From NCBI GenBank assembly GCA_947625515.1, contig CANQOO010000008.1, positions 1-35,009 of the forward strand: a stretch of DNA of 35,009 nucleotides, written 5' to 3'. Of this stretch, positions 1 through 29,586 are shown one piece after another (position 1 is the first letter of the stretch; the number at the start of each line of letters is the position of its first letter). Source of the DNA: an uncultured Clostridia bacterium (GTDB lineage Bacteria > Bacillota > Clostridia > Christensenellales > UBA1242). Both the position numbers and the translations under genes were made by a program. Under the pieces are notes generated by a model. That model ran no database searches and was not told the DNA's origin. It was given only the letters and a program-made list of their open reading frames with translations.

Positions 1-733
1 GTGGAGCTATCATCCATCCAATCCGCTGACCAATCACTATATAATGCCCCATCCAAGAAACCATAATATTCCCCCTCGTCTGCTTTTCGGTCAGCCCAAG
101 CGTCTTGCTGATTGTCCGCCAGCCAAAGAGTGAGAATCACATCGTGAGGCTCATTGTCTTTCCCCTCATTTGTGGTGGAAAGATAGACTGGCGTCCATTT
201 CAGCCCGCCCAGTTCCACAATAATCTCTGCTTCGTAACTCTTGGCAGAAACAGAATAGTCCTCGTTCGAAGGAATTAAATATTCGCTTGATGTGGCGGGA
301 TTCGCAGAAACAGAAGCGGCATTTGCGGATGCATTATATGCGGAACGACCAGCGGCAAATTTTGTAGCAGCAGACAAATCCTCGTCCGCAGATGCGGGAT
401 TCATCTTGTTGTAATTTGCAATCATGTCTTCTGAGGTCATCCTTGTTGCAGCGAGGGCTTCAATCGGTGCCATGTTGTCCACCGTCGCTGTGCTGTCGCC
501 TGAAATGTTCCACAACAGTTTGTTGACATTGCTCTTGTCAAAAACCTGTGACACACTGTCCCATAGGTCCTGCGAAATGTCATAAATAACAGAAAAGCCG
601 CCCTCGATTCCGGTCGAAAGAGCAGCCAAAACAATGTTAGCCATAGTGCAAGTGATAACAAAGATAAACAGCAAAACAAAGCCAGTGTATTTCAGCTTAT
701 CAAAAATCCCCCCCCCGCGAATTTACGTCTCAT
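1..733 (-). CDS. Partial, frameshifted gene for a single-pass membrane or secreted protein; function unknown
   Basis: The gene starts at an ATG at 731-733, about 8 bases after a clear AGGAG ribosome site, and runs off the left edge. As written, the ATG frame stops after 13 codons because of a run of nine G (708-716). One extra G (or two fewer) joins it to an open frame of about 235 codons that continues to base 1 without a stop. The joined product would begin MRRKFAGGG, followed by a hydrophobic segment (about residues 17-40, rich in F, V, L, I) and then an extracytoplasmic-looking region with Ala/Ser/Asn-rich stretches (around 315-345) and a Trp/Asp-rich end. I do not recognise a family. The intact downstream frame and strong ribosome site argue that it is a real gene, either phase-variable or affected by a sequencing error. 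It lies 180 bases downstream of fakA on the same strand. Confidence 0.6.
708..716 (-). repeat. G9 homopolymer tract in codons 6-9 of the partial gene
   Basis: The + strand reads nine consecutive C (nine G in the coding sense), 15 bases downstream of the A of the start codon. Ten or seven G put the ATG in frame with the long downstream frame, while nine or eight G lead to early stops. The position and length are typical of slipped-strand contingency tracts, but also of assembly errors. Confidence 0.9.
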
Positions 734-912: not shown

Positions 913-2544
913 TTATTCCAGGCTTACAAGATAATAGTAAACTGGTTGTCCGCCGTTTGCAACGGTCACTTCACAATCTGGATATTTCTTTGCAAGAGCC
1001 TCTTGCAATGCGTTTGCCTCATCCTCACGGATGTCCTCGCCATAGAAAAGCGTGATGTTCATGATGGAATCATCAAACATGGTTTCAATCAACTTCTCAG
1101 TGGTTTCGCTCACAAGATTGCCCTTCGCCAAAATTGCCTTATCATCCAGCCCAATAATTTCGCCCTTGGAAAGGTCAAATCCGTCCACGTGCGTGTCACG
1201 CACTGCATATGTCACACTGCCCGAACGCACACTTTTGATGGCTTCCAGCATGGCGTTTTTGTTTTCTTCCTCGCTGGCATCCGGGTTGAACGTGATTGCC
1301 GCCGAAATGCCTTCTGGCACGCTGCGGGTCGGGATGACCACAATGTTTTTGTTTGTCACCTCGTTTGCCTGCTCTGCCGCAAGCTGGATGTTTTTGTTGT
1401 TAGGGAAAACAAACACTGTGCGTGCCGGCACCTTGTCCGCCGCGGTGGCGATGTCCTCGGCACTTGGATTCATGGTTTGTCCGCCAACAATAATCTCGTC
1501 CACGGTCAGTTCTTTGAAAATCTGAGCAAGCCCATCACCCGGAGCGACCGCAATCATGCCCAGCTCTTTTGTTTCTTCCACAGCCTGAGCCTTCTTTTTC
1601 AGCTCTCGGTTTTGCTCTCGCATGTTTTCAATCTTCAGGTTGTATAGTTCGCCCAGTTCCAGTGCGTAGCCAAGTGCCTTGTTTGGCTCGTTGGTGTGCA
1701 CATGCACCTTGACAAGCGACAAATCCCCAATGCAAATCACGCTGTCACCAATTTCCATCAGTTTTTCACGCAGTTTGGTGATGTCCGCCTCAGTGGTTTT
1801 CTTATACATATTGATAATCATATATTCGGTGCAATAGCCAAACTCAATGTCGCCCAACTGATTGATGTCCGCAATGACATCATCCACCGTTTGAGGCTTG
1901 GTTTCGTCCTCAAAAGTGTATTCCAGTTCTTCGCCAATCAAGAAGCGATAGAACCCCGTGAAAATCACCAAAATGCCGCGTCCGCCGCTGTCCACAACGC
2001 CCGCTTTTTTAAGCACTGGCAGCATTTCTGGCGTCTGTTTTAAGATTTCTTCACCGATGTCCAGCACTTTTTTCAGGAAAACTTCAAAATCGTCATGTTT
2101 CTTTGCCAAACTGACGGCGTTTTCTGCCATAACGCGGATGACAGTGAGGATTGTGCCTTCCTTTGGCTTGGTGACCGCCTTATAAGCGATGCTTGCCCCT
2201 TCTTGCATGGCCTTTGCGAAATCTTTGGTGGAAACTTCCTTGCAATTTTTGGTCACCGAGCAGAAACCCTTAAAAATTTGGGAGGTGATGACCCCAGAAT
2301 TTCCTCTCGCCCCGCGAAGAGCCCCCTTGGCGAACGCTTCCGAGAGGCTGACAAGGTCGGTGTTCATGCATTTGTTAATTTCACCAACAGCCGACTTCAT
2401 TGTCAAAAACATGTTTGTTCCCGTGTCGCCGTCTGGCACAGGAAAAACATTCAGGCTGTCAATATATTCCTTATTTTGTTCAAGCAGGCTGACACCCGCA
2501 AGGACCATCTTCTTAAAGGTCGCTCCATTGATTGATTTAAGCAT
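913..2544 (-). CDS. fakA: Fatty acid kinase, ATP-binding subunit FakA (YloV/DAK2 family)
   Basis: FakA phosphorylates fatty acids held by a FakB carrier so that exogenous acyl chains can enter phospholipid synthesis; it acts in the cytoplasm. The 543-residue product matches the family length. The N-terminal DhaL/DAK2 kinase domain shows the nucleotide/Mg loop PDGDTGTNM near residues 37-45, RGARGNSG near 77-84, and DSGGRG near 185-190. The middle domain keeps a Cys near 238 and the VHVH pair near 281/283, which correspond to the metal-site residues described for FakA. The C-terminal part is the EDD-like region with FYGED. I chose the ATG at 2544 because it has a GGAG 10 bases upstream and the product then begins MLKSINGATF, as in homologues; a longer in-frame start at 2592 would overlap the upstream gene. 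It lies 19 bases after the Asp23-family gene, in one operon. No FakB gene is in the window. Confidence 0.95.
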   Translation of the reverse strand: MLKSINGATFKKMVLAGVSLLEQNKEYIDSLNVFPVPDGDTGTNMFLTMKSAVGEINKCMNTDLVSLSEAFAKGALRGARGNSGVITSQIFKGFCSVTKNCKEVSTKDFAKAMQEGASIAYKAVTKPKEGTILTVIRVMAENAVSLAKKHDDFEVFLKKVLDIGEEILKQTPEMLPVLKKAGVVDSGGRGILVIFTGFYRFLIGEELEYTFEDETKPQTVDDVIADINQLGDIEFGYCTEYMIINMYKKTTEADITKLREKLMEIGDSVICIGDLSLVKVHVHTNEPNKALGYALELGELYNLKIENMREQNRELKKKAQAVEETKELGMIAVAPGDGLAQIFKELTVDEIIVGGQTMNPSAEDIATAADKVPARTVFVFPNNKNIQLAAEQANEVTNKNIVVIPTRSVPEGISAAITFNPDASEEENKNAMLEAIKSVRSGSVTYAVRDTHVDGFDLSKGEIIGLDDKAILAKGNLVSETTEKLIETMFDDSIMNITLFYGEDIREDEANALQEALAKKYPDCEVTVANGGQPVYYYLVSLE

Positions 2545-2563
2545 ATTTTCAAGACTCCATTTC

Positions 2564-2914
2564 TCACACGCAAACGCCGACAACGTGAACATTCACTGTG
2601 TCAACAATCATGCCCGTGAAATTTTCGACAGAATATTTCACCGATTTCTTCAGGCTCTCTGCCACCGCACTGATAGACACACCGTATTTGAGAATGCAGT
2701 GTATGTCAATGAAAATTCGATTGTCAATGTGGCTTATTGTCACTCCCTTTGCATAACGCTCTTTATGGAACAGCTCTCTTGCACTTTCGCGGAAGTTTTT
2801 GGCAACCAAATCCACCACGCCATAGCAATCGAGGGCAACAAAACCAGCAACAGTGCGGATGGCATTGTCGCTGATTGAAATGTTTCCATAATAGTTGTTT
2901 GTGTCAACTGTCAA
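2564..2914 (-). CDS. yloU: Asp23/Gls24 family protein (YloU-like)
   Basis: The 116-residue product starts at a TTG with a strong GGGGGAGG ribosome site 9 bases upstream. It has the family pattern: an N-terminal GNISISDNAIRTVAGFVALD segment, a central ISHIDNRIFIDIHCILKYGVSI strand pair, and a C-terminal VKYSVENFTGMIVDTVNVHVVGV segment. Asp23-family proteins are small cytoplasmic or membrane-peripheral proteins linked to cell-envelope stress in Firmicutes; their biochemical role is unsettled. It is first in an operon with fakA and divergent from rpmB, the same arrangement as in Bacillus subtilis (rpmB versus yloU-yloV), which supports the identification. Confidence 0.9.
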   Translation of the reverse strand: MTVDTNNYYGNISISDNAIRTVAGFVALDCYGVVDLVAKNFRESARELFHKERYAKGVTISHIDNRIFIDIHCILKYGVSISAVAESLKKSVKYSVENFTGMIVDTVNVHVVGVCV

Positions 2915-8387: not shown

Positions 8388-8744
8388 TCACTTAAAAATT
8401 GCTCGTAAAATCAGCCCAAACACAAAACTGACCGTGGCAAGAAAGATTGACCGCAGAACCAACAGCCCAAAAGTGCGGCGGCTGCGTTTTGCGTCCGAGT
8501 TGTACGTCTGCCCATTTTTCTTCAAATTGACGCAGTAAAAATAGCCTTTTTTGCTTTCCGAAACAACAAAATCAATGTAATTTTGATTCGCCAGTTCCAC
8601 CATAATTTCGTCAATTTCCTCAATCGACAAAATAAATCGCTTGGACAGTGCTTGCGTAATTTCCTGCGGCGAAATGAGATATGTCCGCTTTTGCTGACAC
8701 TTGTTGCACAAAAAAGTCATCACCAATTTTTCTTTTTTTGTCAT
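8388..8744 (-). CDS. Winged-helix-like protein with a C-terminal membrane helix (paralogue A)
   Basis: Starting at the ATG at 8744, the 118-residue product has an N-terminal domain of about 75 residues resembling a small winged helix (KEKLVMTFL ... ISPQEITQALSKRF ... IDEIMVELANQNYIDFV). A basic linker (KRSRR) and one hydrophobic C-terminal helix (about 90-115) follow. A CNKC pair lies near residues 15-18. The same architecture, with alignable residues, is encoded by the divergent gene at 9061, so the two are paralogues. The likely topology has the N-terminal domain in the cytoplasm. Ribosome site is weak (AGAG); a longer in-frame start at 8828 exists but would add a non-conserved extension. 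Function unknown; DNA binding is not shown. Confidence 0.65.
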   Translation of the reverse strand: MTKKEKLVMTFLCNKCQQKRTYLISPQEITQALSKRFILSIEEIDEIMVELANQNYIDFVVSESKKGYFYCVNLKKNGQTYNSDAKRSRRTFGLLVLRSIFLATVSFVFGLILRAIFK

Positions 8745-9060
8745 AAAGCATGCTCTTTGCTTATTTTTTTTCAATTCAACTTTTTTATTCCGTATGCCAA
8801 CGCCTGTTCCGCCGCAATGCGACACCACCTAGCCCGAGCAATCAAAGCTGCCCTCCGTTTTATTTCGCCCCCCCCAACCCGAAAATTCAAAGCCCCCGCC
8901 TGCCGCCGCAATTTTCCCACCCGGCGAAATCTAGAATCTAAATGTAAGCCAATTTTTGCCCTACTCAGCCCTCAACCGCCTCTCACTTCAAACGCCGCTC
9001 ATCTCAACCGCACCGCACGCACAAATGCATATAAAGTGCAAAAAAATTTAAAATATTGAT
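8745..9060. other. C-rich, G-poor spacer between the divergent paralogues
   Basis: About 316 bases. The central 8800-9020 stretch is strongly C/A-rich on the plus strand, unlike the surrounding T/A-rich intergenic DNA, and contains a C8 run at 8868-8875. No promoter-like boxes or supported gene were seen. Confidence 0.5.
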
Positions 9061-10444: not shown

Positions 10445-13400
10445 TTAGTTATTTTGTTCATCTATACTGCCATCATATCGCAAAACATGGAAACTGCCAC
10501 CGTCGTAATAGAAGAGCGAATGCTTGTCATTCAATGCCGATACTGTGATATCCGCAACCCACTTTCCATTAAGATTCCCCGCAGCAGAATCAACAATGCG
10601 ATACAACTTCACGGTATCCTTAAGTTGATATTCCAAATTGTCTAGGCCATAAGTTTTTGTAAACGTTTCTTCAAGTTCGTCTTTTACACCGCTAACAGTA
10701 ATAGAATAAGCTGTTTTATAAATATTCCTAGTGGCAGAGCCGGTAGTTTCGGTTATCCCGCTTGTGTCTTCTTGCACCCACATATATTCTTCTCTATGAT
10801 TATTGAAGGCATTCGTGTCTAGCAAATTGACAAGTATGACGCCTAAATCATTGTATGGGTCGTAATAGACTTTTGTGCCGTCATCTTTTGTCAGTTGCCA
10901 TGTGCCAGACGAGCCGGCATCGTCAATCCATGTCAGAATTTTTGTAGAGGCGAATCCTGGAACGCTGACAGAGCCTCTGGTTTTCCAATGAACGCCGTCA
11001 AATTGCAGTTGTGTTTCTACATGAGCAGTATTATGCCATGGCAAAATCACCTTGATGGTAGGCAATTCGGCGTATTGACCTGTTTTTACATACATCTTGC
11101 CAGGATTAAAACTGCCCTTAACCATAGATGTAATTCCAGTTTGTTCTGTCTTCCAAGCGGCAGGAATGGCATCCTCACCGATTACTTCAATCGTGCCGTA
11201 TTGTTTCAACTCATCGCCTGTCGATGTTTTGCCAGAGAAATCGGTCTGCCCTAATTCATTGCCCCAGTTCCAGCTTTCGCCGCTGGTCCAAATAACTCCT
11301 CGCCACTGATATACCCCACCGCTGCCACTATCGCCTTTCTCGCCTGTTTTGAGGCTGACATACACTTTGAAATCATCTGCCTTCCAAGCATGAACATTGC
11401 TTTCGATCTGTGTCTTCCAATTAGTAGTAGTGACACCATTGTAGTTGTCATCATCATCTCTATATTCCCACCATGCATTGTCAGTGCTGCTGAATGCACC
11501 TGTGGTGACATTTCCAAACACAAATGCTCCCCACGCACCTTCTTGCCCGTTATATGTGTAAGATGTATTGCCATATTCTTCCAATTTTGGAGCGGCTTCC
11601 AACTGCTTGGTGCCGGAGTTGCCATTATATTGCGTTATCTCTTGCATTGTACGTTTTGCGACATTGGTAGGCTCAACAATGTCATCTGTGATATCGCCTG
11701 TTCCAGACGAAACCACTTTGCCAGCATTACCACCTTTGATAACAACGCTGGAATTGTTCTTAGCATTGCCACCAAAGCCAGGCACACCGTTAACGCCCGC
11801 TTTAACAAAGCCAGCAAAATCTTTCTGAACGCCAACTACCCCAGCAAAGCCACTATATCCACCGTTGCCAGGTCTATCATTTGAGGATTCTGCATCTTTG
11901 CCATTTGCCCCATTCCCGCCATCACCAACAATAAGGATGTTGCGAGATTCATATTTGGCATTATTGTCGTCAGGGTCTGTAATAGTCACTGCATCCAAGA
12001 ATGATGCGGCAGAATCGCCGTTAATCGAACTAATAGTTCCTTCCTCACCATCAAGTCCATTGATACACAAGAAGCTTGTCACATCCACATCGCCACTTGC
12101 ATCCATGGTATACAAACTTTGGTCGTTAATGACATTTCGGATGTTGCCATACAGCGTCAGCCCCGAAATTGCGTGCGTTGCAGAAATAAGGGTATCGCCC
12201 GCAGAGTTAAATGAGCCGACCACCATCAGTTTGACGTCACTGATGTTTGCCCCATAATCCTTGAGGATGTAGCCTGTTCTGGTTGTCATTTTCACAATGT
12301 GTTCACCACCAAAAATGGTGTTTGATTTACCGCTGGCAATGTTCCCAATATTTTGATCACTCTCAAGCACAACATTTACCGTCCCAGAACTGTCAAGGAT
12401 TGTGCTCAAGCCTTGGCTAGATCTGACAATCTGTGTCTTTTCGCCATTGATGGTGGCATCTTCATCCTCGCCTTCCACGCCTGTCTTTTTATTGATGTCG
12501 TCAATTTTGTCTTGGGCTTCGGTGGATGTATCTGCGTCAGTTGTCGGGTTATCTATCGCTTCAAATGTTTTATCCCCGCTGTCCACAACCATCAGCACAC
12601 GGCCAAAGCCTGTGTTGGCGAGAGTATTGCCATCCACACCCTTCACTTCTTCACCTGTGAGGATTTTGTCATATCCGGCAAAAGTCACACCTTCGGCATA
12701 TTCAGTTGTCTGCTTCATCAAGAAGTCGTCATGTGACAAAATCAAGCCATCTCTGAACCCTTCTCCCCCAACTGTATATGAGTCAAAAGCTTTCGGCTGT
12801 TCATTTTGCTTATTCCCAAGAAAATTCTTTCTTATGTTGTTAAAATCGAATGTTTGATCTCCCGGGGTGTCGAGCATACTATACCGATAATTCGTGACTG
12901 ATCCATATTTATCAAAGGAATATGCAGAGGCTTGAATTCCGTCATTAAATTTGTTGAAAATGCCTTTATAATAGTATGAAACTCCAAGCTCAGTGGTGGA
13001 ATGAACACCCGTCTTGTATTGATTGAAGATGTCGTTGTCAACAATGGTGTACGACTCTTTATAGCAAGATAGAGTATGATATTCTCTCTTATAATCTTCC
13101 CCAAGCACATAGCCTTCTCGGCAATAGTCTATTCCATCCACCCCGACAGAATTCTCCCAGCCTGGCACAGTTGTCGTTCCATAGACTGCCTCCAATTCTT
13201 TTGCAGTCGCCGTCACACTCACATCTTCCAAAATCCTGCCGTAGGTGCGGGTCATATAATCGGTTTTATAGATATGCATAGGAATGCCATATGAATCATA
13301 TCCGTTCACATAATATTTATAGCCACTCTTTTCCTCACCCGTTTCAATGCTGCCGTCCACATTGCGAGTGCGTGCGTCAAAAGACGCCCAAACATTTTGT

Positions 13401-16400
13401 AGTGCATCCTTTACACTCTCTTCACTCACATTGCCCCTATACATCGCTTGCCTATCAAATGTGATGCTCTTTGTCTCGACAACCTGCCCGATGCAGCCAT
13501 CGTTTTTGATGTTGTCGGTGGAGGTGGAGTTGTTGTTTTGAACGCCGTCCACCACAAAGCCGATGCCGTATGCATACACTTGACGAGATTTGCCCGGATT
13601 GTATGTCAGTGTGATGTCAAATTTCAGAGATTCCAGCGGCTTTTGATTGCCCTGTTTGACTTTTTCAATGTGATTTTCACTAAAATATGCATTTTCCTTT
13701 GTCCAAACTTCGTCTTTACTGTTTCCAGACGTGTCGCTGCTGCCCGTTGCATATCCGTCCGCATTAATGCCGTTGTTGTCCTCCAGCTTGCCCTTATTGT
13801 CCTCGCTGAGTTTCACATCAATGCTATAAATTTGGTTAGTGCGTGAAGGTGTCATGTCGCTCAACGCCTCAATACCGGCGTCGTTGACATTGCTGTCCAT
13901 ATTCACATTGACGCCATATCCCACAATGCCGCCCGCAAAAGCGTAGTTGCTTGGAGAGTAATAATTGCCCGCACCGACAAAACCGGTGTTATAGTTGTGC
14001 AACAGCTGAACGCATTCATCCGTCTGTCCAGCCGCATATCCCACAATGCCGCCAGCGACGTAGTTAGTTGTGCGAGCAACAGACTCGGTGTAGCCACTCA
14101 AAACCGCATTGGCGTTGTAGGAGTCGGAAATTGTTGTTGACTTATCTGCATAGCCCACAAGCCCGCCGACCATGTCGTGTAAATATACGGTCGATCCGTT
14201 AACCTTGGTCGATGCGACATAATTACCATCCTTATCAATTGAACTGAAAGGCACGCTATTGTTGTAAAAGCCTGTCACAATAATTTGTCCGCCACTGGAA
14301 GAATATGTCATCCTGCCGTTTCGGACGATGTTGTTGCCGTCCACTTTTGCAGATTCGTCAGCCGTAACGAATTTTCCAACCACGCCGCCAACAATACCGC
14401 CGTGTTCTGTGGTGATGTTGACAAGCGATGTCACTGCTGTGGCACTGCCGTTAAGCGTGCCAACAACGCCGCCTACTGGGGTTGCCGCAGAAGATGCTGT
14501 CAAATTCCCAACGACGGTCACATTTGTCAGTTCGCCCGTCATGGTTGTCGCCAACGTCGCAGCACCGCTCACATTGACATCATTCAATTTCAGATTTTCA
14601 ATTATGCCTTTCACGCTGTTAAAGAATGCACTTGCCCGCCCGATTTTGTTAGCGAAATCCAATGTTTTGTTGTTTCCGTCAAAAATGAGGTCCACCCTGC
14701 TGATGCTGCCCATAGAGAACTGTTCCACTGATGGGTATGTGCCATCATTTTTCGGAGCCATGTCGATGTCGTGCTGCAAAACGAAGCGGAAAGGCTTGGA
14801 AGAAGAGGCGGAAGTGGCGTCCGAAATGGTGTCAATCATTTGGTTAAGTTTGCCATAGTTTGCCACACCCAAGAACCACTTGTTGAGTTCGGTTATCAAT
14901 GTTGGATTTGTTGCGTCAACAGTGTAGAGTTCTTTTCTGCCGCCAGAGGTGAGAATGTCGCCATATGCCACTGCTTGATATTCATATTGTGGCACAGCGG
15001 TTGCATCTGCTGGGCTGGCGTTTCTTTCTTTGCCATAATCATCTGGTCTTGTGCCGTCTGCATTTAAATTGCAGTTGAACAGCAGCTTGTCGGCGTTTGT
15101 CACCTTGCGAGTGTATGTTGAAACATTCTTCAGATATCCAAAGCCGTGGGATGCATAGCCATTGTTTGTGAATGGCGAGAAATACCACTGCGTGTGCGTG
15201 GTCTCGTCACCGCCTTTACGCAAATTGTATACCGCATTCGGCTTGTCAGTTGTGCCTGAGGAAGTTGGACTTTTGCCAATGCCTGTATATGAAACCGCCA
15301 TGCTGCTTGCGTTGGCAGCGGAATAGTTATAACCCTGAGAAGCGTCGGATGTAATGCCAGCGTTGCTTGCCCCAATTTGCACGCCATAACTTGCGTTTAT
15401 CGCCTGATTGAACGACTCGGCATTCAGCCCGCGTCCATTTTCTTTGACAAACATTGGCGTATAGTTCCCTACATTGCCGCTGACAATTTGTGTGACAACA
15501 TTGGCGTAGGAATATACATCAATCAGCCATACAAACGATCTATCATAGCCAGCACCACCAAAATCCACACTTGCAAAAGTGTAAACAGGTGCATCCACAT
15601 ATGTCTTAATTTCGCCAGCAGAATAGGTTGCTTTGATTGCCGAGACTCGCAAAGTAAGAGTGCCTGGCACAATGGAAAGATCAGGTGAAACATTTGCCAC
15701 GCCAGAGACATGACCATAGTCTTCCAAATAGACCCCGCTTAATACTCTGACAGTTCGGGCGTCACGATTGCGATAAACAATGTTGGCGTCCACATAGCAC
15801 TCGTTAATCAAACCCGACTGCATCTGACCTGCAATTCCGGCGAGGTTGACGTTGTGAGCACTGCCCGTCCCTCCGCCGACCGACAGGTCGCCTTCCACGC
15901 CAACGCCATAGATGAAAGCATTGCCATTCATCTGCCCGACAACGCCGCCGTATGAGCCATCCTCCGTCACATCCGCAACGACGTCAAGATCCACAATCAA
16001 GCCAGAAATCATACTGAAATTGACAGATGGCTCTGTGGAAGTTTTTGCTTTTCCCATCACGTCCACAAGGGCTCCCATTGTTGCGGAGCCAGCAGACCCA
16101 CTTGTGCCTCGCGTGTCGGAAACTTGCATTCTTCTGCCGTTGCCGACGAATGCCATGTTGACAAATGCGTTTGAATCTGCCATAAGTGGTGTTGTGCGAA
16201 CCTCATCCCCGGTAAAGTCGTTTGTCAGTGCCAGCCAGGAGATGTTGTGAGTGCTGCTCAATTTCTTTTGATTTTCGTCAGTTTCAACATAGTATATTCC
16301 GTCAACAGTTGAAATTTGCGATGTATGATTATCAAACGAATACGGATTCAATTTCTCGCCACAGGTTGCATCGCCAGTGAAGCCAGAAAGCATGTAGCCA

Positions 16401-19400
16401 AGATTTTTCGTGATAAGTTCTTCAAAGATGTCGCGGCTGCTCCACAGCCCATCTCCGCTTGCCCCGTCAATTATGTTGCTCTCGTCAACTTTCAACACGC
16501 CGGACTCATCATAGTCTGGCACATAACTTGAATAGCCAAAATATTTGTATGCGTCCTCACCTTTCAAATATTGTCTGTCGATGTTGCCTTCTTCAACCTG
16601 ATATGCCATGCAGACCATGGAGGAATAGGCGTTGCTGTCATAATTGACAATTCCCGCCGATGCACCGACAATCGCCCCAACCTTATATTTCCCGTTTTCA
16701 AAACGACGGTTTTCATCCGCTGTCAAGCGATTGTTGAAGTTGGTCATTAAGGAAACAGAATTTTGGATGTTGATATAGTTTGCCGAGCCAACAATCCCGC
16801 CAAAGTTATATTTTGAAAGTTTAATTAGGCTTTCTTCGTCATAGTTGACAAAAACATCGCCATATGTGAAGCAGTGCGAAATGGTGTAATTGATTGCGTC
16901 CGGGTTGTGGTCTGCAAGCAACCAATCGCCCACAACACCGCCGGCAGTGACCTCATCGCCATAATCGGCACCCCAAACTTTAAGTGCCCCGCCAAACACC
17001 GTTCTTGAAATGGTGATTGGCAAGTCAGACTCAAAGCCGGTGGCATTCAACTTGCCAACCGCCCCGCCAAAATTAAGCGATTTCACATTGGAAAGCACAT
17101 TGCCAGCAAAAACGTAGGCATTATTTGGGTCAGCATTGATGTCCATTGTGGCAGACGTGCCGCCTTCGCCGCCTGTTTCAACCACTTCGCCAATCATTCC
17201 GCCCACATTTGCCGTGAAACCATTTGGTTTTGACTCGCTGGTGAAAAGTTGTTTTACCGAAATGTTGATTTTGTTTACGCCGTCACTTGACAATTTTATG
17301 GTGAGGCTGCCATGGAATTTTCCAATCAGGCCACCAACATCCACAAAACGTGGGCTGACATCATCGGTTTGCACCGCAACATCCAAATTGCCTGCAACAT
17401 CCACTTTACCGATGAATGTCAGATTACTGCCAGTCTTGGCGTAGCCCACAACGCCACCAATGGCGGTGTCCGCAGAACTGCCACTCACTTCAAATGGGCT
17501 GAGTGCAAGAACGGTGCCGTCCTCACGCACGAAAGAGGAATAGTCTTGCAAATTCTTTTCGAAGAGGTCGTCCAGCACCCTGCCGGAAGCATCTCTGAGC
17601 ATATATTGTGGCAAAGCCTCTTCAAAATTATTAAAGTTGGTCAAGTTGTTAAGTCTGATTTTTGCCACTTCAAATTGAGCGTTCAGGCTGCCAATCTTGA
17701 CGATGAAGTTCACTTGCCCAGCAAATGCACCAAGTTGGGTGTTGGAAACTTTGAGTGCAACTGGTGTTGTGCCAGTCGCCACCTGATAAATTCCGCCACG
17801 CAAGAAAAGTTGTTGGCCTGTTTGAATGCTCATATCAGCAGCCGAGGAAGCAACTTCGCCAAATGCCAAACCACCTTCCAAGGTGCCAACGCTGCTGTTG
17901 CTGTCGCCACCAAGCAAAATCCTCATGCTGCCAGCGTCAATTCTGCCCGCCGAGGCACTGATTGAGTCCGCCCCTTCAACGGAGCCCATAAAGCCGCCAA
18001 TCCTCAAATTTTCTACGCTGTTGGTTTCAGTGCCATGTTTGTTGACAACAAACAGCACATCACTGTCAAGCGAGCTGATTCCGAGAATCAGTTTTGCCAT
18101 CAAGCCTTCGCTTGCTGTTTCTTTGACAGCCCTGCCAATAAACAGCCCAGCTGAGACATCCAAAAAGTCTTCGGCAAGGTCAACACTGACCAAAACTGGC
18201 TTTTCAGCGTCAGCATTTTGCTTCACGATGCGGTTGTCAGCAACGGTGGTGTTTGAAACCTGACTTGCCTGTGCAAGTTCACCGGTCAAAAGACCAATGG
18301 CAACTTTGTCCGAGCCAGCCACTCCGTCAGCCGACATGGTGATGGTGCTGTCGCCTCGGACCGTGATTTCGTTTGAAACGTAGGATGTGGAAATTGAGCG
18401 ACCCGCAATAAGCCCGGCACGCCCTTGTTTGGCATTGAGGACAAGATTGCTGTTCAGCACAAAGTTGTTAAACAAAAATGAACTGTTCAAAAGTCCCGAG
18501 CCTTCCTCATCTTCCACAAGGCTATAATCAATCACATCAGTTTCATTCGCCGCACAGAAATAGATGTTAAGCCCACGCACTGTGGCATGCTCTGCTTCTT
18601 TAAAGAGCGGCTTATCCAGAATAAGTCCCGGCTCGTCAGCATTCTTTTCCCCGCCGACGCCATATGGCTGAGCGTCCGAATTGATGGTATAGCTCTCGGA
18701 GTCCTCGGTGTATGCTGAAAGTGAAATGAGTGTTCCGCTGAAATTCTTGAATGTTTCAAACAAGTTTTCAGGTGCGACATTTGCCACACTTCTAAGGTCA
18801 ATGTCGCCATATTTTGTGCAGTTCTCGTCGTCATGGTATTCTCTTCCTCGCACAACAATGGTCGCATATGGATTGTTGGCAATCACTTCAAGCACTTCTT
18901 CGGTGTTGTCCATATCCCAAAATGCTTCGTTGATAAGCGGAAGGATTCGCAGTTCTGGGAACAAATGGTCTTGCTTATGCTCCCAATACTTTTCATCCCA
19001 GTCGCTTTGCAAGAAATATTTTGCAAGATAGGAATATGCCGCAGACATGGTGGACATCTTACGATCCCCCATTGGCTGCATACTCACAAGGCTGTCTTGA
19101 TCAAACTGGTCAAGGTCGCCAAATCCAAAGAATTTCATGAAGATTGTATTGTCCCCAAAGACAACCCTGTCAAAGCCTCCTACGGTTTTTGTGCCAATCT
19201 CGTTGCCGCTGAAAGAGTTTGCCGCAGTGTCATAGCAGCCGCCGTAGCTATCGATAATGTATGGCATCACAGCACTTGCCTGCTCAATCGAAGCAATTTG
19301 TGAGTTGCCGCCTTTCAGGGTGAGAGAATCGCCCTGATAAGCACGGCCGATAAGCACAAAGTGGCTGTCACTTTCTTTGTTGCCGCCAGACGCATGAGTT

Positions 19401-22400
19401 TTGTCGTCCATAATGTTGCCGCCTGACCTATCAACAGAGCGATAGTTGACCGCCAAAGATTTTGTCAGAGCAATTCGCGGTGTGCCATATCCAGCAGACC
19501 AGAACGCCCCAATAAGACCAGCGTTGGAAACAAGTGAATCGGAGGTGTTGCTCCACAAGCCGACATCGCCAGAAGCATAGACTTCGTCAAAATATGCATC
19601 CACACTTGGACGGCCAATCACATTTTTGAGAACAAACGAATTTCCAGTTGATGTCATTGCCCCAACGATGCCGCCCACGGCAAGCGTTTTATCGGAATAG
19701 GAAATGACATTAAGTTTGTTATAAGATTTATAGATATATCCGCCGCCCATAAATCCAACAAGTCCTCCAACAAACAACGGATTGCCCTGAGATTGGGTGG
19801 TTTCAGGCTCATATGACGTGTGAGAAAATATGGTCTGCTGGCCACGTTCCAAAGCATTTCCGCTTGAATAATATCCCGCTTCACCCTCTTCAATCAGCGT
19901 TTGAATTTCGTCGTCATATTTTGCATATGTGGCAAACAATGCCCCATAGCTTTCACCGACAATTCCGCCCGCATAGAGATTTTCTGCGGTGATATAGGAT
20001 GGGCTGTCAAGTGCGGAACTTGCGTTCAGCACCACTGATGCATCATAGACATATGTTGTTTTGCCCAAATAGCCAAAAAGTCCGCCAGCAATTTCCGCCT
20101 TAACCTTCACCGACTGGCGAGCCTTGACAGAAATGATGTCATAACTTTCTTCTGACAACGATGCTTCAAAGAAAGCATAGTCAGCATTTTGGATGTTGTT
20201 GTTCACATCCACAAGACCGGCAATGGCACCACCATATGAAAGCGTTTCGCATGCCGGGATGTCGTTGGCATCGATGGAAGAGCGAAGCATTCCCAACGCA
20301 TCTGCGTTGTCACCCACTTTCTTGGAATTGTCCCAATAGGACGCCTCCACCTCAATGCCTTCCACTTTGGCGTCGATAATGCGGCTGGTGCCAAGCACAG
20401 CCCCCACAACGCCGCCGACGATGTTGTTGCCGACAATACGCAAATCTGTTTGCTGCTCGGACGCTTTTTCGATTGTGATTGCCACAATGCGAGAGTCGAT
20501 TGCCGTTCCAGCGAGTGTGCCGACAATATGCCCGCTCTTGGAGCCATTCACCGAAACAACTTTGATATCCAAATTCATGATGACTGCATCGTCAAGTTTG
20601 GCAAAAAGTCCAAAATTAAGCCTGTCTTCGGCAAACTGATTGGCGTTGAGGTTGAGGTTGAGGTTTGAAATTGAGAAGCCGTTGCCATCAAAAATGCCGC
20701 CATTTCCATCTCGATTGCTTGTGAAGGTTTTTGTTGTTGTGGAAAGTTTTGCGATGTCAGATTCTTCACTTTCAATATCTTGGTCAATTTCGGCAAGGTC
20801 GATGTTTTGCACAAGACGATAAGTGCCATACACTTCATTGTCGTTGAAGTATTCTCTGTATGCAGACATTCCGCCCTTCACATTGGTGTCGCCTGTTGCG
20901 AGAGCAAAATCGCGTGCGTTTCGGATGATGATTGGGTTGTTTTCGCTGCCATATGCCAAATTGTAAGTTTCAAATGTGTCCGCATCCAAGATTGTGTTGT
21001 TGTAAAGAAAGTTCAGCACATTTCCAACAGAGGATGCATAGCGATTTGACAGTGCAATTTTGTTTGCCGCCACAAGAGAAATTTTGCCAGTGGCAGAAAC
21101 TGACCAGATGCCGTCATATTCATCTTCAGAAGATGCAAAGCTGAACCCATAGAACTGCTCTTGCGGAGCCGTTCTTCCGCGGTCAACAGCGATTGCCCCA
21201 GAAGTGAATTTGTTTTGATTTGTTGTGTCCATGCCAACATCATTATAGAAATATGAGAAGGTGATGGAGCCTTGATTGAGAGACTGGTTGCTCTGGTCAA
21301 CGCCCGAGAACGGCATTTGATTGATGTCGTTGGTCAAGAATCTGCATCCCGAGAAGCACAAATTCACTTGGGCGTCACGTGCATTGATATAAACAAATCC
21401 TGCCGAATATGCCGGGCGAGAGGATTGATATTCAAATGCAATGTTTGCATAGCAGTTTTTGACAAGTGCCCCGTTGGAGAACACAAAGCCTGCCACCTGC
21501 CCCATGCTGTTGATTGTCAAAAGGTCAAGCGTCACGCTTCCCTGCACGCCTCTGCCTTCAACATAGCTTGTCTGAACGCTGCCGCTGATGTTTGAGATAA
21601 CAAAGCCCGCAGTGATGGAGTTGATAGAATTTGTCTGATTGTTGATTTGAACATTCTTGGCAAAGGATGCACTGATTTGCCCTTCGTTTGAAATGACAAA
21701 CCCTGCCACGCCGCCAGTGCCAGCATTGCGAATTCCGCCCTGCCCCTGAATGACAAATGTGTCGGTTTGCTGAGTTTGAACATACAATCTTCCGCCAATC
21801 TCCACAATGTGCTGGAAGTTTTCCCCGCCCACGCGAGAGTTGACGATGGATGCATTGTTTGTGATGGCAAAACCGGCAACAGCACTTTCGATGTTGTTGT
21901 TCTGCATATAGCCTTCCGTCATGCGATATGCATCTGCATTAGCCCCAGTTGTGTAGGTCACAACAATGCCACTTGAAGGACGCGAAACTGTCTGATGCTC
22001 ACTTCGATAGGAAACAACCTCGCAGTTGTAGATGATGCCTTCGTTGGTGATAGCAAAGCCGGCAATGTTAATCTTTTTGTGCCGAGCAAGGTCAACCGAA
22101 ATCTGCCCAGCACCATACACATTCACGCGGACATTTTTCAGCGTTGTGCCAGCAGTGACACGATTGAACAGTGCCAAGTTTAAATCCCCGCTTTCTGGGA
22201 TGTTGAAGCTGTTGAGATGAATGGTGAAGCCGTTGCCGTCCAGGCTCTTGATGAGCGTGGTGTCCAGCGGAGTGTATTCATCCAGCACAATGTCGTTCAT
22301 GAGGATGTAGTCATCCGCTTGCTCGCTGTTGGTTGCAAAATCCACAAATTCCTGACCAGTGAAAATCTGGGTTGGGATTTCTTCATCCGACCAAACATCG

Positions 22401-25400
22401 ACAACAATCAAGAAGAGATATGTGTAAGTTGTTTCTGCCCCTTGGAAATAAACCGTGGTGCGAAGCCGCATAAGTTGCGACCCTGTTTTGAGGCCGGTGA
22501 TTCTCAGCTGCTCGTTGCCTTGGCTGTCGTAATCGCTGGAAATGCGGAACAAGCCCTGTCTTTGTTGCACAATGTTGCCGTAGCCTTCATTATAGATTGG
22601 CGTGTAAATTCGTCTGCCGCCTTCAATTTCCACAAAGTCGAGTTGTTGTTTAAGTGCAAGCGGAGCCATTTGCCCAAGCGTGCTGTCGAAGCGATGATTG
22701 ATGTAATATTCCGATTCTGGATTTGCATAATTGTTGGCAATTTGGAACTTTCTTCTCTCTGCAATCAGGGCGTTTGCAATTTCTTCTTCCTGAGCATTGA
22801 ATGTCAAATATCTTTCTGGAAGCAACGGATAATTGAAGCTCAGCACATCGCCAAGGGCGTCTTGTGTTTGAACATAAGATTGGAATACATCATATTCTTG
22901 CCCGTCCACAACTTGTGTGCCTCGCAGAGAGGAAAGTGAGATGTTTTCTTCGTCAATCGTAAAGTCCACAAGCATGATTGTGGCACGCGATGTCTTGATG
23001 TCCTGAATGCCATTAATCACCCTTGCAACTTGTGCGTTGACAGTGAATTCTCCATAAGAACTGCCGTCTTGAAGCTGTGCACTGACATATGCCGTCAAAG
23101 TGGCAGTGTATTCTTTATAATAAGAGGAAACTTGTTCGGTCTCTCTCCAAGAGCTGAGCGTAATTCCTCCGCCTGCCCCCTGCAAAGAAAGCCCATACAA
23201 TTCTTGGTCAATGCCCACTCTCACGGACACGGTGGCGGTGCTTCCGCGAGGCATCAAATAGGAAGATTTTCCTTCCACCAAAATTTCTGCCTCAGGCATG
23301 AAGTCCACAACAACATTTTGAGAGGTCACATATGTTTGGTCATCGCCATAGAAGCTTGCGGTGAAAGTCAAATCTTGGTCAGACGCAAGCAAGCTGGAAA
23401 CATAGACGCGGAAATAGAACACGCCATCACCTTGTCTGTCCGCATCCGTCAAGTTGACACGCAGACCGTTTGAAATGATTGAAGTGTTGTCCATCACCCC
23501 GTGGAAGCCATAGGACGGGTTGTTTTGCAGCCGCGAAATGGTGATTGCGGACGATGGTGCGTCATGAGTGAGTGTGAAGTGCGTCATCTGGGCAAATGCC
23601 GGGCTTACCGTCATTGCCATGATGGCGTCTGAGGATGGTGGCAAAGTGTTGAGAATGTTGCTTGACATGCGATAATACATCACAGAGCCAAAAATCGTCT
23701 TATCAGATATACCATAGAAGGAAATGGAAACATCCTCCACTTTCTGTCGCAGCACGCTGAGCACAATTTGCTGGGCGAATGCTTTGTCATCCACTTTGCT
23801 GAGTGCATTGACAAAAAGTTTCAAGTTTGCATAGTCTGCTGCAACAAGATGTTTCTTGTTTTCGCTCACTTTCACAAGAACACGATATCTGCTTGTTCGC
23901 CCGTCTGAAAGTGTTTCAATTTTGCTGGTTGTCACATCCAAAGACAAGTGTTCGTCAATGTCAAATCTACCGTCAGAAAGAGTGTAACGCGAGCCGTCAA
24001 ATTCCAATTCAAACACAAGTTCGTCTGCGGCACTATCGGAAGTCATAACGACATCAAATGTGGCGTTTTCGGACACCTTAAAGCTCAAATGTTCGGCATT
24101 TTCAATGGCAAGAGCGGTCGCCCCGTCATACACCGACACAGAGAAATTTCTCTCACGAATTTTTGCCAGCCCGTCAGCATATTTTTCGTTGGCCACTCCA
24201 AGTCCCGCAACCTCAACGAAGGTTCTAAGATGCGAAACCTCGCCGGCCGAATGGCTTTCAAGACCGCTGAGCAGCAAACTTGTGCTGCTGTTTCGCTCCA
24301 CCTTAAAGTGGCTTTCAGCGGCAATCTCCTCACCGTCTGCATCGACATGATTGAAGTTGATGGAGTATTCATCCTGAGCAAGCAGCCGCATTGTTCCATT
24401 CAAAGAAATGGCGTTATCAAGCTGATAAATCACGCTTTGAGTTTTACTTTTTTGCAGCAGCACCACCTGCCCGTCTTGAAGGTGATTTTCACCAATCACA
24501 GCATCGATGGTTGGAAGATAATTTAAAATCAGCACCTTGAAGGTCTTTTGCCGCGTCATGTCAGTCTTGGAACGCACGGCAAGTTCAATTTCATTAAATG
24601 ATGTGTTGTTCACACGCACAGATGTGCTTGCGACCGTCAAGTTTGACGAAGAGGACGAAACAAGCAAGCCCCTCGCCTGACGAGAAGACAGAGGATTTAA
24701 GTCAAGTGCAAACAAATTTTGCAAAGAAATTGTGTTGCGATTTTCAAGTGCGGATTTATCCGCATCGCTCAGCATCACGTTCTGCTGAGCAAGAGCGTAT
24801 CTGAAAAGCACGCCCATGTCCCCTTCAACGCCCAAAGATTGAAGCGGTGAGAAATTGTCATTGATTGTCAATGCGGTCACGTCCACTTCAACATCCTGCG
24901 TGGTTTTTGCAAGGTGCATAAAGCCAAAGTTTATGTTGCTGTCCACGTCATCGCCAACCGCCCAAATGTTGTCGCCCTCAGCATCTCTTTGCGACAGCAT
25001 CGCAAGGATGGTTCTTTCATAAAGATCCCCTTCTGTCGCGGTCAGCACAAACGGCTCTTCGTCCGTGCCTGTCACATAAAAGTTGACAGCCCAAGTGCTG
25101 GAAGTGCGATATGCAATGTAGGAATTTCTGACAGTAAGGCTTGGAGTTGCTGTTGAGGATGGCGAGCAAGTGGCAAGTTGGACATTGCCCAAAAATGCGA
25201 AACTTTCGCTGATCTGTGCCCCACGCTGGTTGACGCCCACAAACGCTCCAATTTGACTGGCGTTGATCACCACATCCGAAGCGTGTTCTGGGGTGCTGAG
25301 TGGATAAGCATAGACATAACTGCGAGTTATTGTGCTGTTTTGCGAAGCAAAGCCCACCAAACCACCGACAACAATTTCGGTCGGCACCATGATGGTGTTT

Positions 25401-28400
25401 ACCTCTTCCACAAATTGGAAGAACTGGAAGTTGCTGCCCACAATCGCCCCTTCGTTTCTGCCCACAAGTCCGCCCACAGCAGCTCCTTCTGCAACAAAAG
25501 CCGATTTTTGTGCGTCAATGGAAAGCCCAGCGGCGGTCAATCCGTCAATGTTGCCGCGGTTCAGCCCCACAAGCCCGCCCACAGCAGAGAGTGCCTCTGT
25601 GGATGCAATTTCAAGTTTGCTGCTGAGAAATTTGTCCTCTGCGGCAGAATAATGCACATCAACATACAAATTTTGCATGTTGCCAACATTGACATTGGCG
25701 ATGTAGCCTGCATAGCGGCTGCCATAAAAATCTTCGCCCGTGCCTGTTAAATTGCCGGCAAAAGTCAAATCTCGCAGCAAGCCAAGGTTTCTGCCCACAA
25801 AAGTATGGCTGTTGCCGGTAAATGTGAGAGTGATGTTTTCATCTCGTCCAAAAATTCCGCCAGTCAGTTCTGGAATTGTCTGCCAATCGGAAAGGACAAG
25901 GTTGTTCATGATTTGATAGAAGCAAGTGGTGTCGGAAAGATTTTGAAGTTCCTGAGCGGTGTAAAGTCGAATTGCCGTTTCTTCATTGCTGCCGTCGGCA
26001 AAGATAACGCGAATTTTGAGGATGACGTCGCGATTGTAAACTCTTTCCCCGTTGTTGTTCAAGAAATAACTGCAATACTGCCCGGCGTTTTCGTCCGTTC
26101 CGTCGTTGCCAACCAAATCATCATAAATGCTTGGCAGCCTGCTGAGCGGTGCATATTTTGCCACAAGGGTGTCGTTTGCGGAATCATATTCATATGCAAG
26201 CACCTGTTCCAGCCCGTTGACACGCTTAACCATGTCGGATGGAAGAAGATAAACATATCCATATCCGCCGGATGCAGAGTTGCCAAGTGTCAAATTGAAG
26301 GTTTGTCCCGATTGATATATTTCAAAATTGTTTGCGGCCGCTGGATTTGTGGCATATTGCTGGTCAAAAACATATCGCAAAGAGGTGTCATATGCCTCGC
26401 TTGGCTGAACAGACGCCGCAATGGTGAAGCTGCGTTCGCTGTCGTTTTGGGAGCGAGTGTTGAGATAAATCTGCCCGTCCTCGGTGGCGTTGGACCAAGT
26501 GACGCTTTCCACACGGTTGACGTTTCTGATGTGCAGCACAATGTCCGTTTTGCAAACGAAACCGCCTTCTGCATTCGTGCGGTGGTCATAGTAGATTGTC
26601 AAGACATCGTCGAAAGTTGGATTAAACATTGTGGATTTTGCAGTTATTGTAAATTCCAAAAATCTTCCAGCAGATGTGAAGCGGATGCGAGAGATGGAAT
26701 AATAATCATTGTCCAGATTGGTGCCGTCGCCTGTGCCTGTGACGTCAAAGCCGGTGTCGCCATACAATCCTTGCAGCGTGCTGGAAACAAATTTGAAATA
26801 TGAAAGATTGTTGGTGTAAGTTGGGATGTTTTGGTCATTTCTAAGAGCAATCATCACATTCACCGACGCCAAAGAAGCGTCAGGAATGCTGAGAGTTTCG
26901 GCTGTATAGATTGTGCTTTCTTTCACATTTGACGAAAGCGTCCTCACTGAGAACAGACTTTCAAGGGCGAAAAACCTTGCCAGCGTAATTTGCTCGCGAG
27001 AGCCTTCTTCATATGCCCAGCCTTTGAACATCACGCAGACAAAGCCCTTGAAGGCATTGTTGGAAATTGTCAGGCGAGAATTTTGCGAGTTTAGCGAGAA
27101 AAGCGTGCTGTCCACATTGCCAAAGCGGTCGAAATATCTTGTCGCCAAAATGTTTATGGCGTCCTCGCTGCGGAAGAATTGTTCTGCCGCCTCCTGCGTG
27201 GTCAGGTCTGGATATTGGTCACCTAGTTCTGCCATAATTCGCAGGAAAGTGTTGTAATATCCATTTGTGTCAATCGGCAGTCCGCCGCCCCGCACAGATG
27301 TCCACATTGGCAAGAATCGCACTTCAATTTGTGAAATTGCGGACGAATTGAACTGAATCGGAAGATTTGTGCCAGCTTCCAGAACAAGTCTGGACAAAGA
27401 GCGGCTGGCAGTCACCCCTTCGCCCACACGCGTGTCGCCATCTTGCAGCACAAAGCTTTGGTCAGCATATTCTTCTTCAAACACACTTGAAGATTGTTTG
27501 TTGGCATTTTCAAGAGAAGCCTCGTCAAGCGGAACAAAGGCGGTTATGGAAAATTCTTCCGACTGCCTGCCTGTGACATGCTGGAAATGGAAGGTTGTGG
27601 AAGCATCAAAGTCAAAGCCGACCAGGGTAACTTTGAAGTTGACCACCATGGAAGGAGTTTCGTCAGTTTCATAAGAAACGCGTTCAAGTGCCGAGAACAC
27701 GAAGCGGGATGTGTTGGATGCAACAACAGAAAGCCCGTTCAAGGAAGAAAATCCGTTGATTGTCACATTTTGATATTCCAGTGTGCGAGTTGTGTTGCTG
27801 CGGCTGGAAGAAATGAATCTGTCAGCAAGTGGCACATCTTCACGGCCGTCAAATTCGGTCACCTCAATGCCGGTGCCGCCGCCAATGCGATATAGGTCAA
27901 ATTTAACATTTGCCGTTTTTGGGCTGACACTTTCAGACACAAACGCAACTTCAAGGTCAGGCACAACAGTTTCAATTCCCTCACCCGCACAGATGTAAAT
28001 CACCTCATTGCTTGTCCTGCCAGATGCATACACATTTTCGTCCGCAGGATTATCGGAAGAAAGAACAATTTCTCTCCCGTTTGCGTCAAAGAATTTTACA
28101 ATTTTTGAAAGGTTTGCTGCCGTAACATTTTGCAAACGGCCGCCCTCATCTGCAACACGCAAATTTCTTAAAGCGTTTTGCCTGAGGTTGACAGAAAGTC
28201 TGTAATGATTTTCCGTGGCGGCGACCAAATTTTCCGGCCGCAACATAACATGCAGTCCATATCCATATGCCCCGGCGTAGGAAGAATAAACGTCCACCTT
28301 CGCGTCGTTGAGGACGTCACCATTCATGTTGGAAACTTGCACGCTTTCAACGGTGTATGCCACAGAGAGCTTTGCTTGCCTTGCACTGGTGTCCACCGCA

Positions 28401-29524: not shown

Positions 29525-29586
29525 GAGTTCCTCCACTTATAATATTTGCAAACCAAATGTTTTTAGCCGCAAAATGAGATATATAT

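Follow-up and report, generated by a model that had tools for sequence, protein, structure and literature searches.

The window analysed here, a stretch of 35,009 nucleotides from an uncultured clostridial bacterium, is the whole of contig C8 in an assembly of 11 contigs that totals 1.114 Mb and is 80.67% complete. Near its first positions, on the minus strand, lies the start of a gene whose ATG (731-733) is preceded directly by a ribosome-binding site region, aaggagagacaaat (734-747). A homopolymer of nine G residues, read as C9 on the plus strand, occupies 708-716, its first G lying 17 nt past the first base of the ATG. In the sequence as assembled, the frame opened by this ATG (692-733) ends after 13 codons at a TGA (692-694). 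A long frame at 3-716 on the same strand, open for at least 235 codons and not in phase with the ATG, codes for a hydrophobic signal segment and about 200 more residues; the gene body proper, 3-707, is 96% and 93% identical to its two nearest full-length paralogues and appears to encode a secreted protein. An earlier, sequence-only reading had described a G9 tract next to a start codon with a good ribosome site and a frame of 13 codons, and these elements lie exactly where given above. That reading had also reported a downstream frame of 235 codons. The frame is indeed out of phase with the ATG, but 235 codons is not the length of the gene: because the window is an entire contig, the frame runs off its end, and the 15 complete copies of this gene found elsewhere in the genome have bodies open for 383-459 codons past the tract. 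Its proposal of a product bearing a signal or anchor agrees with our inspection of the translation, by which a hydrophobic signal or anchor segment, YTGFVLLFIFVITCTMANIVLAAL, was assigned to 618-689 (minus strand).

The G9 at 708-716 is a putative slippage switch of the translational SSR type, in which a tract of at least eight bases in the 5' coding region shifts the reading frame. No sigma-70-like promoter was recognised at 700-930, and the promoter-spacer class described below does not apply to this gene because its tract sits in the coding region. The upstream neighbour (913-2592, minus strand) is a FakA-like/DAK2 gene of the YloV type. Elsewhere in the window, a giant surface protein may be encoded by an uninterrupted frame of 6363 codons (10445-29536, minus strand), whose first 4997 residues gave no Pfam match at E <= 0.01.

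The layout at the window locus is real, but the gene is not isolated: it belongs to a family with 16 members. This was out of sight of the sequence-only reading, as were the similar tracts in promoter spacers of other surface-protein genes and the hypervariable C-terminal domain of the family. Searching the own genome with the window frame returned 33 matches, the best ten of which, besides the frame itself, are full or nearly full in length and 80-96% identical. Including the window copy, 16 paralogues possess an ATG, 17 nt, a tract of G8 to G10 and a long open body; this count leaves out one row (L086), a chance match. The start tract consists of 8 G in one copy, 9 G in 13 and 10 G in two. 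As assembled, six copies have the ATG in frame with the body (ON) and ten out of frame (OFF), close to the one third in frame expected if tract length were random relative to frame. The flanks that follow the tract occur in four forms and three registers, so that the modal length of nine leaves some copies ON and others OFF. Tract lengths also differ between paralogues whose downstream 200 nt are 90-95% identical. The variation in tract length that we observe is between paralogues and between species only.

The OFF copies do not look decayed. The nine complete OFF copies have bodies without a stop or a second frameshift, and the median dN/dS is 0.29 among them (36 pairs) versus 0.29 among the six ON copies (15 pairs), the truncated window copy having been left out of this comparison. 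Genes that are intact and under selection while OFF are thus seen in the nine complete copies, the window copy being cut by the contig end.

The family and its tract extend beyond this genome. In a sister species (G019) the related family likewise has its tract in this position, and of the seven copies scored two are ON and five OFF; one further copy runs off its contig and was not scored. Three paralogues in G002 carry G8, G9 and G10 just after the signal segment (one ON, two OFF), and the single copy in G023 carries G11 and is ON. The sequence-only reading would have been contradicted by a tract fixed and in frame in all relatives; instead, both length and frame vary among paralogues and in the sister species. 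A family profile matches 24 of 112 genomes of the genus. Among 20 family genes taken from 12 other genomes, eight have G9-G11 near the N-terminus (the six that could be scored are all OFF, and two lack an assigned start), six bear their tract within a promoter spacer that was scored, two more are promoter-like by eye (one with its -35 outside the stretch) and four are without any tract of at least eight bases. Start tracts and promoter tracts therefore both occur on one family, and the two mechanisms seem interchangeable.

A search of contigs from named genomes with the family alignment found no direct relatives (the own genome was possibly left out of this set), and the lineage was approached through the FakA/DAK2-like neighbour, for which 80 of 108 relatives were kept. 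The neighbour protein shares 91-95% identity with proteins from uncultured Clostridia MAGs that bear isolate names starting with Lapin, 91% with one labelled Christensenella sp. and 88% with that of Candidatus Caccovivens faecavium; lapin is French for rabbit, and the name suggests a rabbit source for those MAGs. In the 17 of these 80 records that were inspected, a different gene lies downstream of the FakA-like gene, and no family gene was seen at that place. In one related MAG (L140:5021) an unrelated lipoprotein-like gene lies directly downstream of the same FakA-like gene and carries a G9 tract, in frame, shortly past its lipobox.

Tracts of this kind are over-represented in the genome as a whole. 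We counted 39 distinct G/C runs of at least 8 in 1.114 Mb, 35 of them at least 9 long (8 in 4 runs, 9 in 26, 10 in 6 and 11 in 3), against expectations of 0.3-9.6 and 0.03-2.1, respectively, under Markov models (orders 0 to 4) fitted to the window. Sixteen are the start-codon tracts, 15 lie in promoter spacers and eight lie elsewhere: at L080, L084, L085 (two), L086 (two), L020:3100 and window position 8868. The last of these, at 8868-8875 on the minus strand, is a G8 run in a G-rich stretch 5' of the frame 8388-8828, without an adjoining TTGACA. Two similar repeats, L086:3438 and L086:4453, have G9 and G11 after ggcgggtattgc, and the run at L020:3100 (G000:C10:13099) is a G9 that begins 72 nt past an ATG, is in frame and is followed by 742 open codons. 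The modal length of nine could reflect a mutational equilibrium or selection for a motif; we favour the former because the mode is common to coding and promoter tracts. Loss of mismatch repair was considered as a cause of the tracts and rejected: 107 of the 112 genus genomes, the own genome among them, contain MutS_I and thus retain mismatch repair. Campylobacter, which has poly-G contingency genes, is not known to have MutS; the clostridial genus differs in keeping it, and its protein families are unrelated to those of Neisseria and Campylobacter.

The promoter-spacer tracts form a second class. In 15 promoters of the own genome a C9-C11 run begins 3-5 nt after TTGACA and is followed by a hexamer with five or six matches to TATAAT; the L015 row, a coding tract, was dropped from this set, and the -35 of L088 is cut by a contig end, so that a stricter scan gives 14 promoters. 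The tract thus lies between the -35 and the -10, as in the opc and porA promoters, both of which contain a homopolymer tract. The spacers measure 16, 16, 17, 18, 18, 19, 19 and 19 bp, with seven more of 20 bp. The usual spacer optimum is 17 bp, and since many of these spacers, at 19-20 bp, are off that optimum, a single slip may not suffice to change expression. Four of the promoters are near-identical and have 9, 9, 10 and 11 C, two of them lying at contig ends. For 14 of the 15 promoters an open reading frame was found downstream; by eye, the protein of 11 of them starts with a lipoprotein or signal segment.

The same architecture is widespread in the genus. Of 112 genus genomes, 57 contain the pattern TTGACA-N2-6-C8 and none its reversed control; across the phylum the pattern occurs in 9 of 398 genomes, the own genome included, against 7 for the reversed control, which is chance level, and the other eight phylum genomes have one or two matches apiece. 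We scored 60 sites from 27 other genomes, namely 60 of the first 68 distinct sites among the matches listed, with eight skipped. A -10 with five or six of six matches is present in 54 of these 60, compared with a mean of 5.7 and a maximum of 12 when the tail was swapped for random downstream sequence. As parsed, the tracts are C9 in 47 sites, C8 in 12 and C10 in one; spacers run from 14 to 20 bp and are 15-16 bp in 41 of the 54. The mirror form, TTGACA followed by at least G8, occurs in 62 of 112 genus genomes (reversed control in 2) and is absent from the own genome. In G063, G052 and G008, near-identical promoters of the form TTGACA-spacer-G8/G9 precede families of signal-bearing proteins (the MKSLKVKL...GVWAVGE type and relatives; L296-L298, L300, L303-L309 and L315).

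The C-terminal part of the family proteins contains the motif WLRS...VRPALHLNL and is hypervariable. Median dN/dS is 0.90 between the WLRS and RPALHLNL motifs, a value from the 92 of 105 pairs that were usable and with dS near saturation (about 1.1); it is 0.48 just before this region, 0.07 after it and 0.26 in the rest of the protein. Third-base entropy over 28 hypervariable columns in 20 proteins, of which eight columns precede the domain core, is 1.46 versus 1.79 in simulations (0 of 500 simulations). This retention of third bases resembles adenine replacement in AAY codons and is suggestive of a DGR footprint, if only that. When a profile of the C-terminal domain was compared with 2190 open reading frames, the DGR variable proteins of G072 and G093 matched with best-domain E values of 2.7e-6 and 1.2e-5, and that of G081 weakly (3.6e-3). 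The domain homologous to those of DGR targets is thus present in the paralogues; the corresponding region of the window copy lies outside the window, and we expect the truncated copy to have the same C-terminal domain. Variable proteins of DGRs have a C-type-lectin-like fold, which we take to be the fold of the family's C-terminal domain as well, and on this basis the family may consist of ligand-binding proteins of C-type-lectin-like fold. Three family members gave no Pfam match at E <= 1, and the family had no match among PDB sequences at E <= 1. An NCBIfam helicase match (4 of 11 members) was rejected as spurious, with 14 bits against a cut-off of 1496.

Reverse transcriptases (PF00078) occur in 26 of the 112 genus genomes. 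Of 20 stretches around congener reverse transcriptases, 16 contain no template/variable repeat pair and four do (L126, L132, L133 and L135, DGRs in four congeneric genomes). In the four pairs 88-100% of the differences fall at template adenines, and those of G072, G081 and G093 read WLRSA.... The own genome, in its 80.67% complete assembly, gave no PF00078 match, and among its 24 RPALHLN-type sites there is no free template repeat, all 24 lying inside open frames of 193-650 codons, near the frame ends. An active DGR was accordingly not found in it, as neither a reverse transcriptase nor a template was seen in the incomplete assembly.

Several explanations other than switching must be weighed for the coding tracts. 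The most mundane, named by the sequence-only reading as the main alternative, is that the true gene is in frame and that the homopolymer was miscounted in sequencing or assembly. The window copy does lie at a contig end, and G-tract lengths in databases may differ from those in the population (PMC9187656). Such an error, however, would have had to arise independently at ten of 16 loci and again in a second species, and a uniform shift of all 16 tract lengths brings at most 9 of the 16 copies into frame, which argues strongly against systematic base-calling error. Moreover, a run of at least eight G is conserved at one place after the ATG regardless of its exact length, in another species as well. 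We therefore consider sequencing error very improbable. Programmed slippage of RNA polymerase or the ribosome, by which a fixed G9 in the OFF frame would be rescued at the RNA level and expression would be constant and low, fits the finding of exactly 9 G in eight of the ten own-genome copies with the commonest flank and in five of the seven scored copies of G019, and it fits the six out of six scored copies of more distant species that are out of frame. It is at odds with the coexistence of 8-G copies, 10-G copies and copies in which 9 G is in frame, and tracts of equal length in promoter spacers cannot act through frameshifting; on balance it is improbable. We would give about as little credence to the proposal that OFF copies have decayed into pseudogenes or serve as silent donors in gene conversion. 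Recombination is suggested by the high copy number, by tandem pairs and by C-terminal domains common to two gene groups, but the complete OFF bodies are uninterrupted and their dN/dS equals that of the ON copies.

For the promoter class, the tracts might instead be invariant motifs, serving binding or spacing, in a regulon of surface-protein genes. This accords with G063, which has 19 near-identical G8 promoter sites (G8 in 8 of 8 that were fetched) and no G9 anywhere in its genome, and with the 20 G-strand promoters fetched from four species, of which 17 have G8 and three G9; the 12 with an identified open reading frame precede proteins with a signal-like start, as judged by eye. Since the promoter tract is apparently fixed in some species, some promoters of this class may carry a regulon motif and not a switch. 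Against this as a general account, tracts in the own genome are 9, 10 or 11 long, some with near-identical flanks, spacers span 14-20 bp, and the modal length is the same as that of the coding tracts, where no regulator would act. We regard the regulon explanation as rather unlikely.

A phase-variable contingency gene, as first proposed, is the best-supported reading of the window locus, given 16 copies, six ON and ten OFF, with selection on the OFF copies and a sister species that shares the arrangement. We assign a probability of roughly 0.84 to the reading that the window G9 is the contingency switch of one member of a secreted-protein family and that the promoter tracts tune a second group of genes. 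Weighing against it are the retained MutS, the clustering of tract lengths at nine, the uniform G8 promoters of some species, the many own spacers of 19-20 bp and the lack of a recognised promoter upstream of the window gene. Replication would add or remove one G in the tract, and this change would shift the start codon into or out of frame with the body, in which a signal segment is probably followed by a conserved middle region and, at the C-terminus, by a hypervariable domain such as DGRs diversify. If the copies switch independently, cells of one population would show different subsets of them. In the second group, mostly secreted proteins, slippage between the -35 and the -10 would alter promoter spacing. 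The sequence data establish the layout, the number of copies, the frame of each, selection on those that are OFF, retention of the arrangement in sister species, the position of the promoter tracts and the domain homology; we infer slippage in living cells, the expression states and ligand binding. On the best reading, an uncultured genus of gut clostridia has an extensive homopolymer "phasome" whose products are secreted and probably bind ligands. A broader proposal is more tentative, and we hold it at somewhat under even odds: that uncultured clostridial gut symbionts with genomes of about 1 Mb maintain, widely across the genus, a two-layer repertoire of antigens or receptors, in which variable domains once or still diversified by DGRs have spread into a family switched member by member by G tracts in the start region or the promoter spacer.

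Gram-negative pathogens of mucosal surfaces provide the best-known examples of homopolymer phase variation. A close parallel in a gut commensal is the poly-G switch of the sortase pilus in Bifidobacterium breve, which likewise involves an intragenic G tract, replication slippage and a surface structure (PMC9187656); one or two pilus clusters are present per genome there, in contrast to 16 paralogues and 15 promoters in the 1.1-Mb clostridial genome. Unlike the pilus, the clostridial family appears to have a DGR-type variable domain, and its switching is putative. In the Neisseria opc promoter, gain or loss of one base in a poly-C tract alters expression of a surface protein (PMC3447861); the clostridial promoters resemble it in having a C/G tract, and differ in that the architecture is found in about half of the genus, at many unrelated genes. 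The Neisseria phasome, with maxima of 54 loci per genome in gonococci and 47 in meningococci, is similar in its tens of repeat switches, many on surface genes, and in having both intragenic and promoter classes (PMC5953494). Within the Bacillota, the 5' poly(A) tracts of Listeria inlA and Bacillus subtilis swrA also lie near the start and lead to an early stop when out of frame, but unlike the clostridial family these are individual genes, and their A tracts are about 6-9 long (PMC2831843). The likeness to DGR variable proteins lies in the homologous hypervariable C-terminal WLRS...RPALHLNL domain; unlike DGR systems, the own genome showed no reverse transcriptase or template repeat, and its repertoire would consist of phase-switched paralogues. 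Among the matches listed in a search of the open literature, no title or abstract start describes poly-G phase variation in this lineage. New features are the clostridial lineage, a repertoire of this size in a genome of 1.1 Mb, the use of start and promoter tracts within a single family, and its connection to a DGR-type domain.

An uncultured clostridial commensal with a small genome thus appears to devote about 31 loci to homopolymer phase variation. Automatic annotation would tend to label many such genes as frameshifted. The notion of gut commensals that diversify their surfaces stochastically, against phage, host antibody or competitors, is directly testable without culture, since metagenomes already at hand allow tract lengths to be read.
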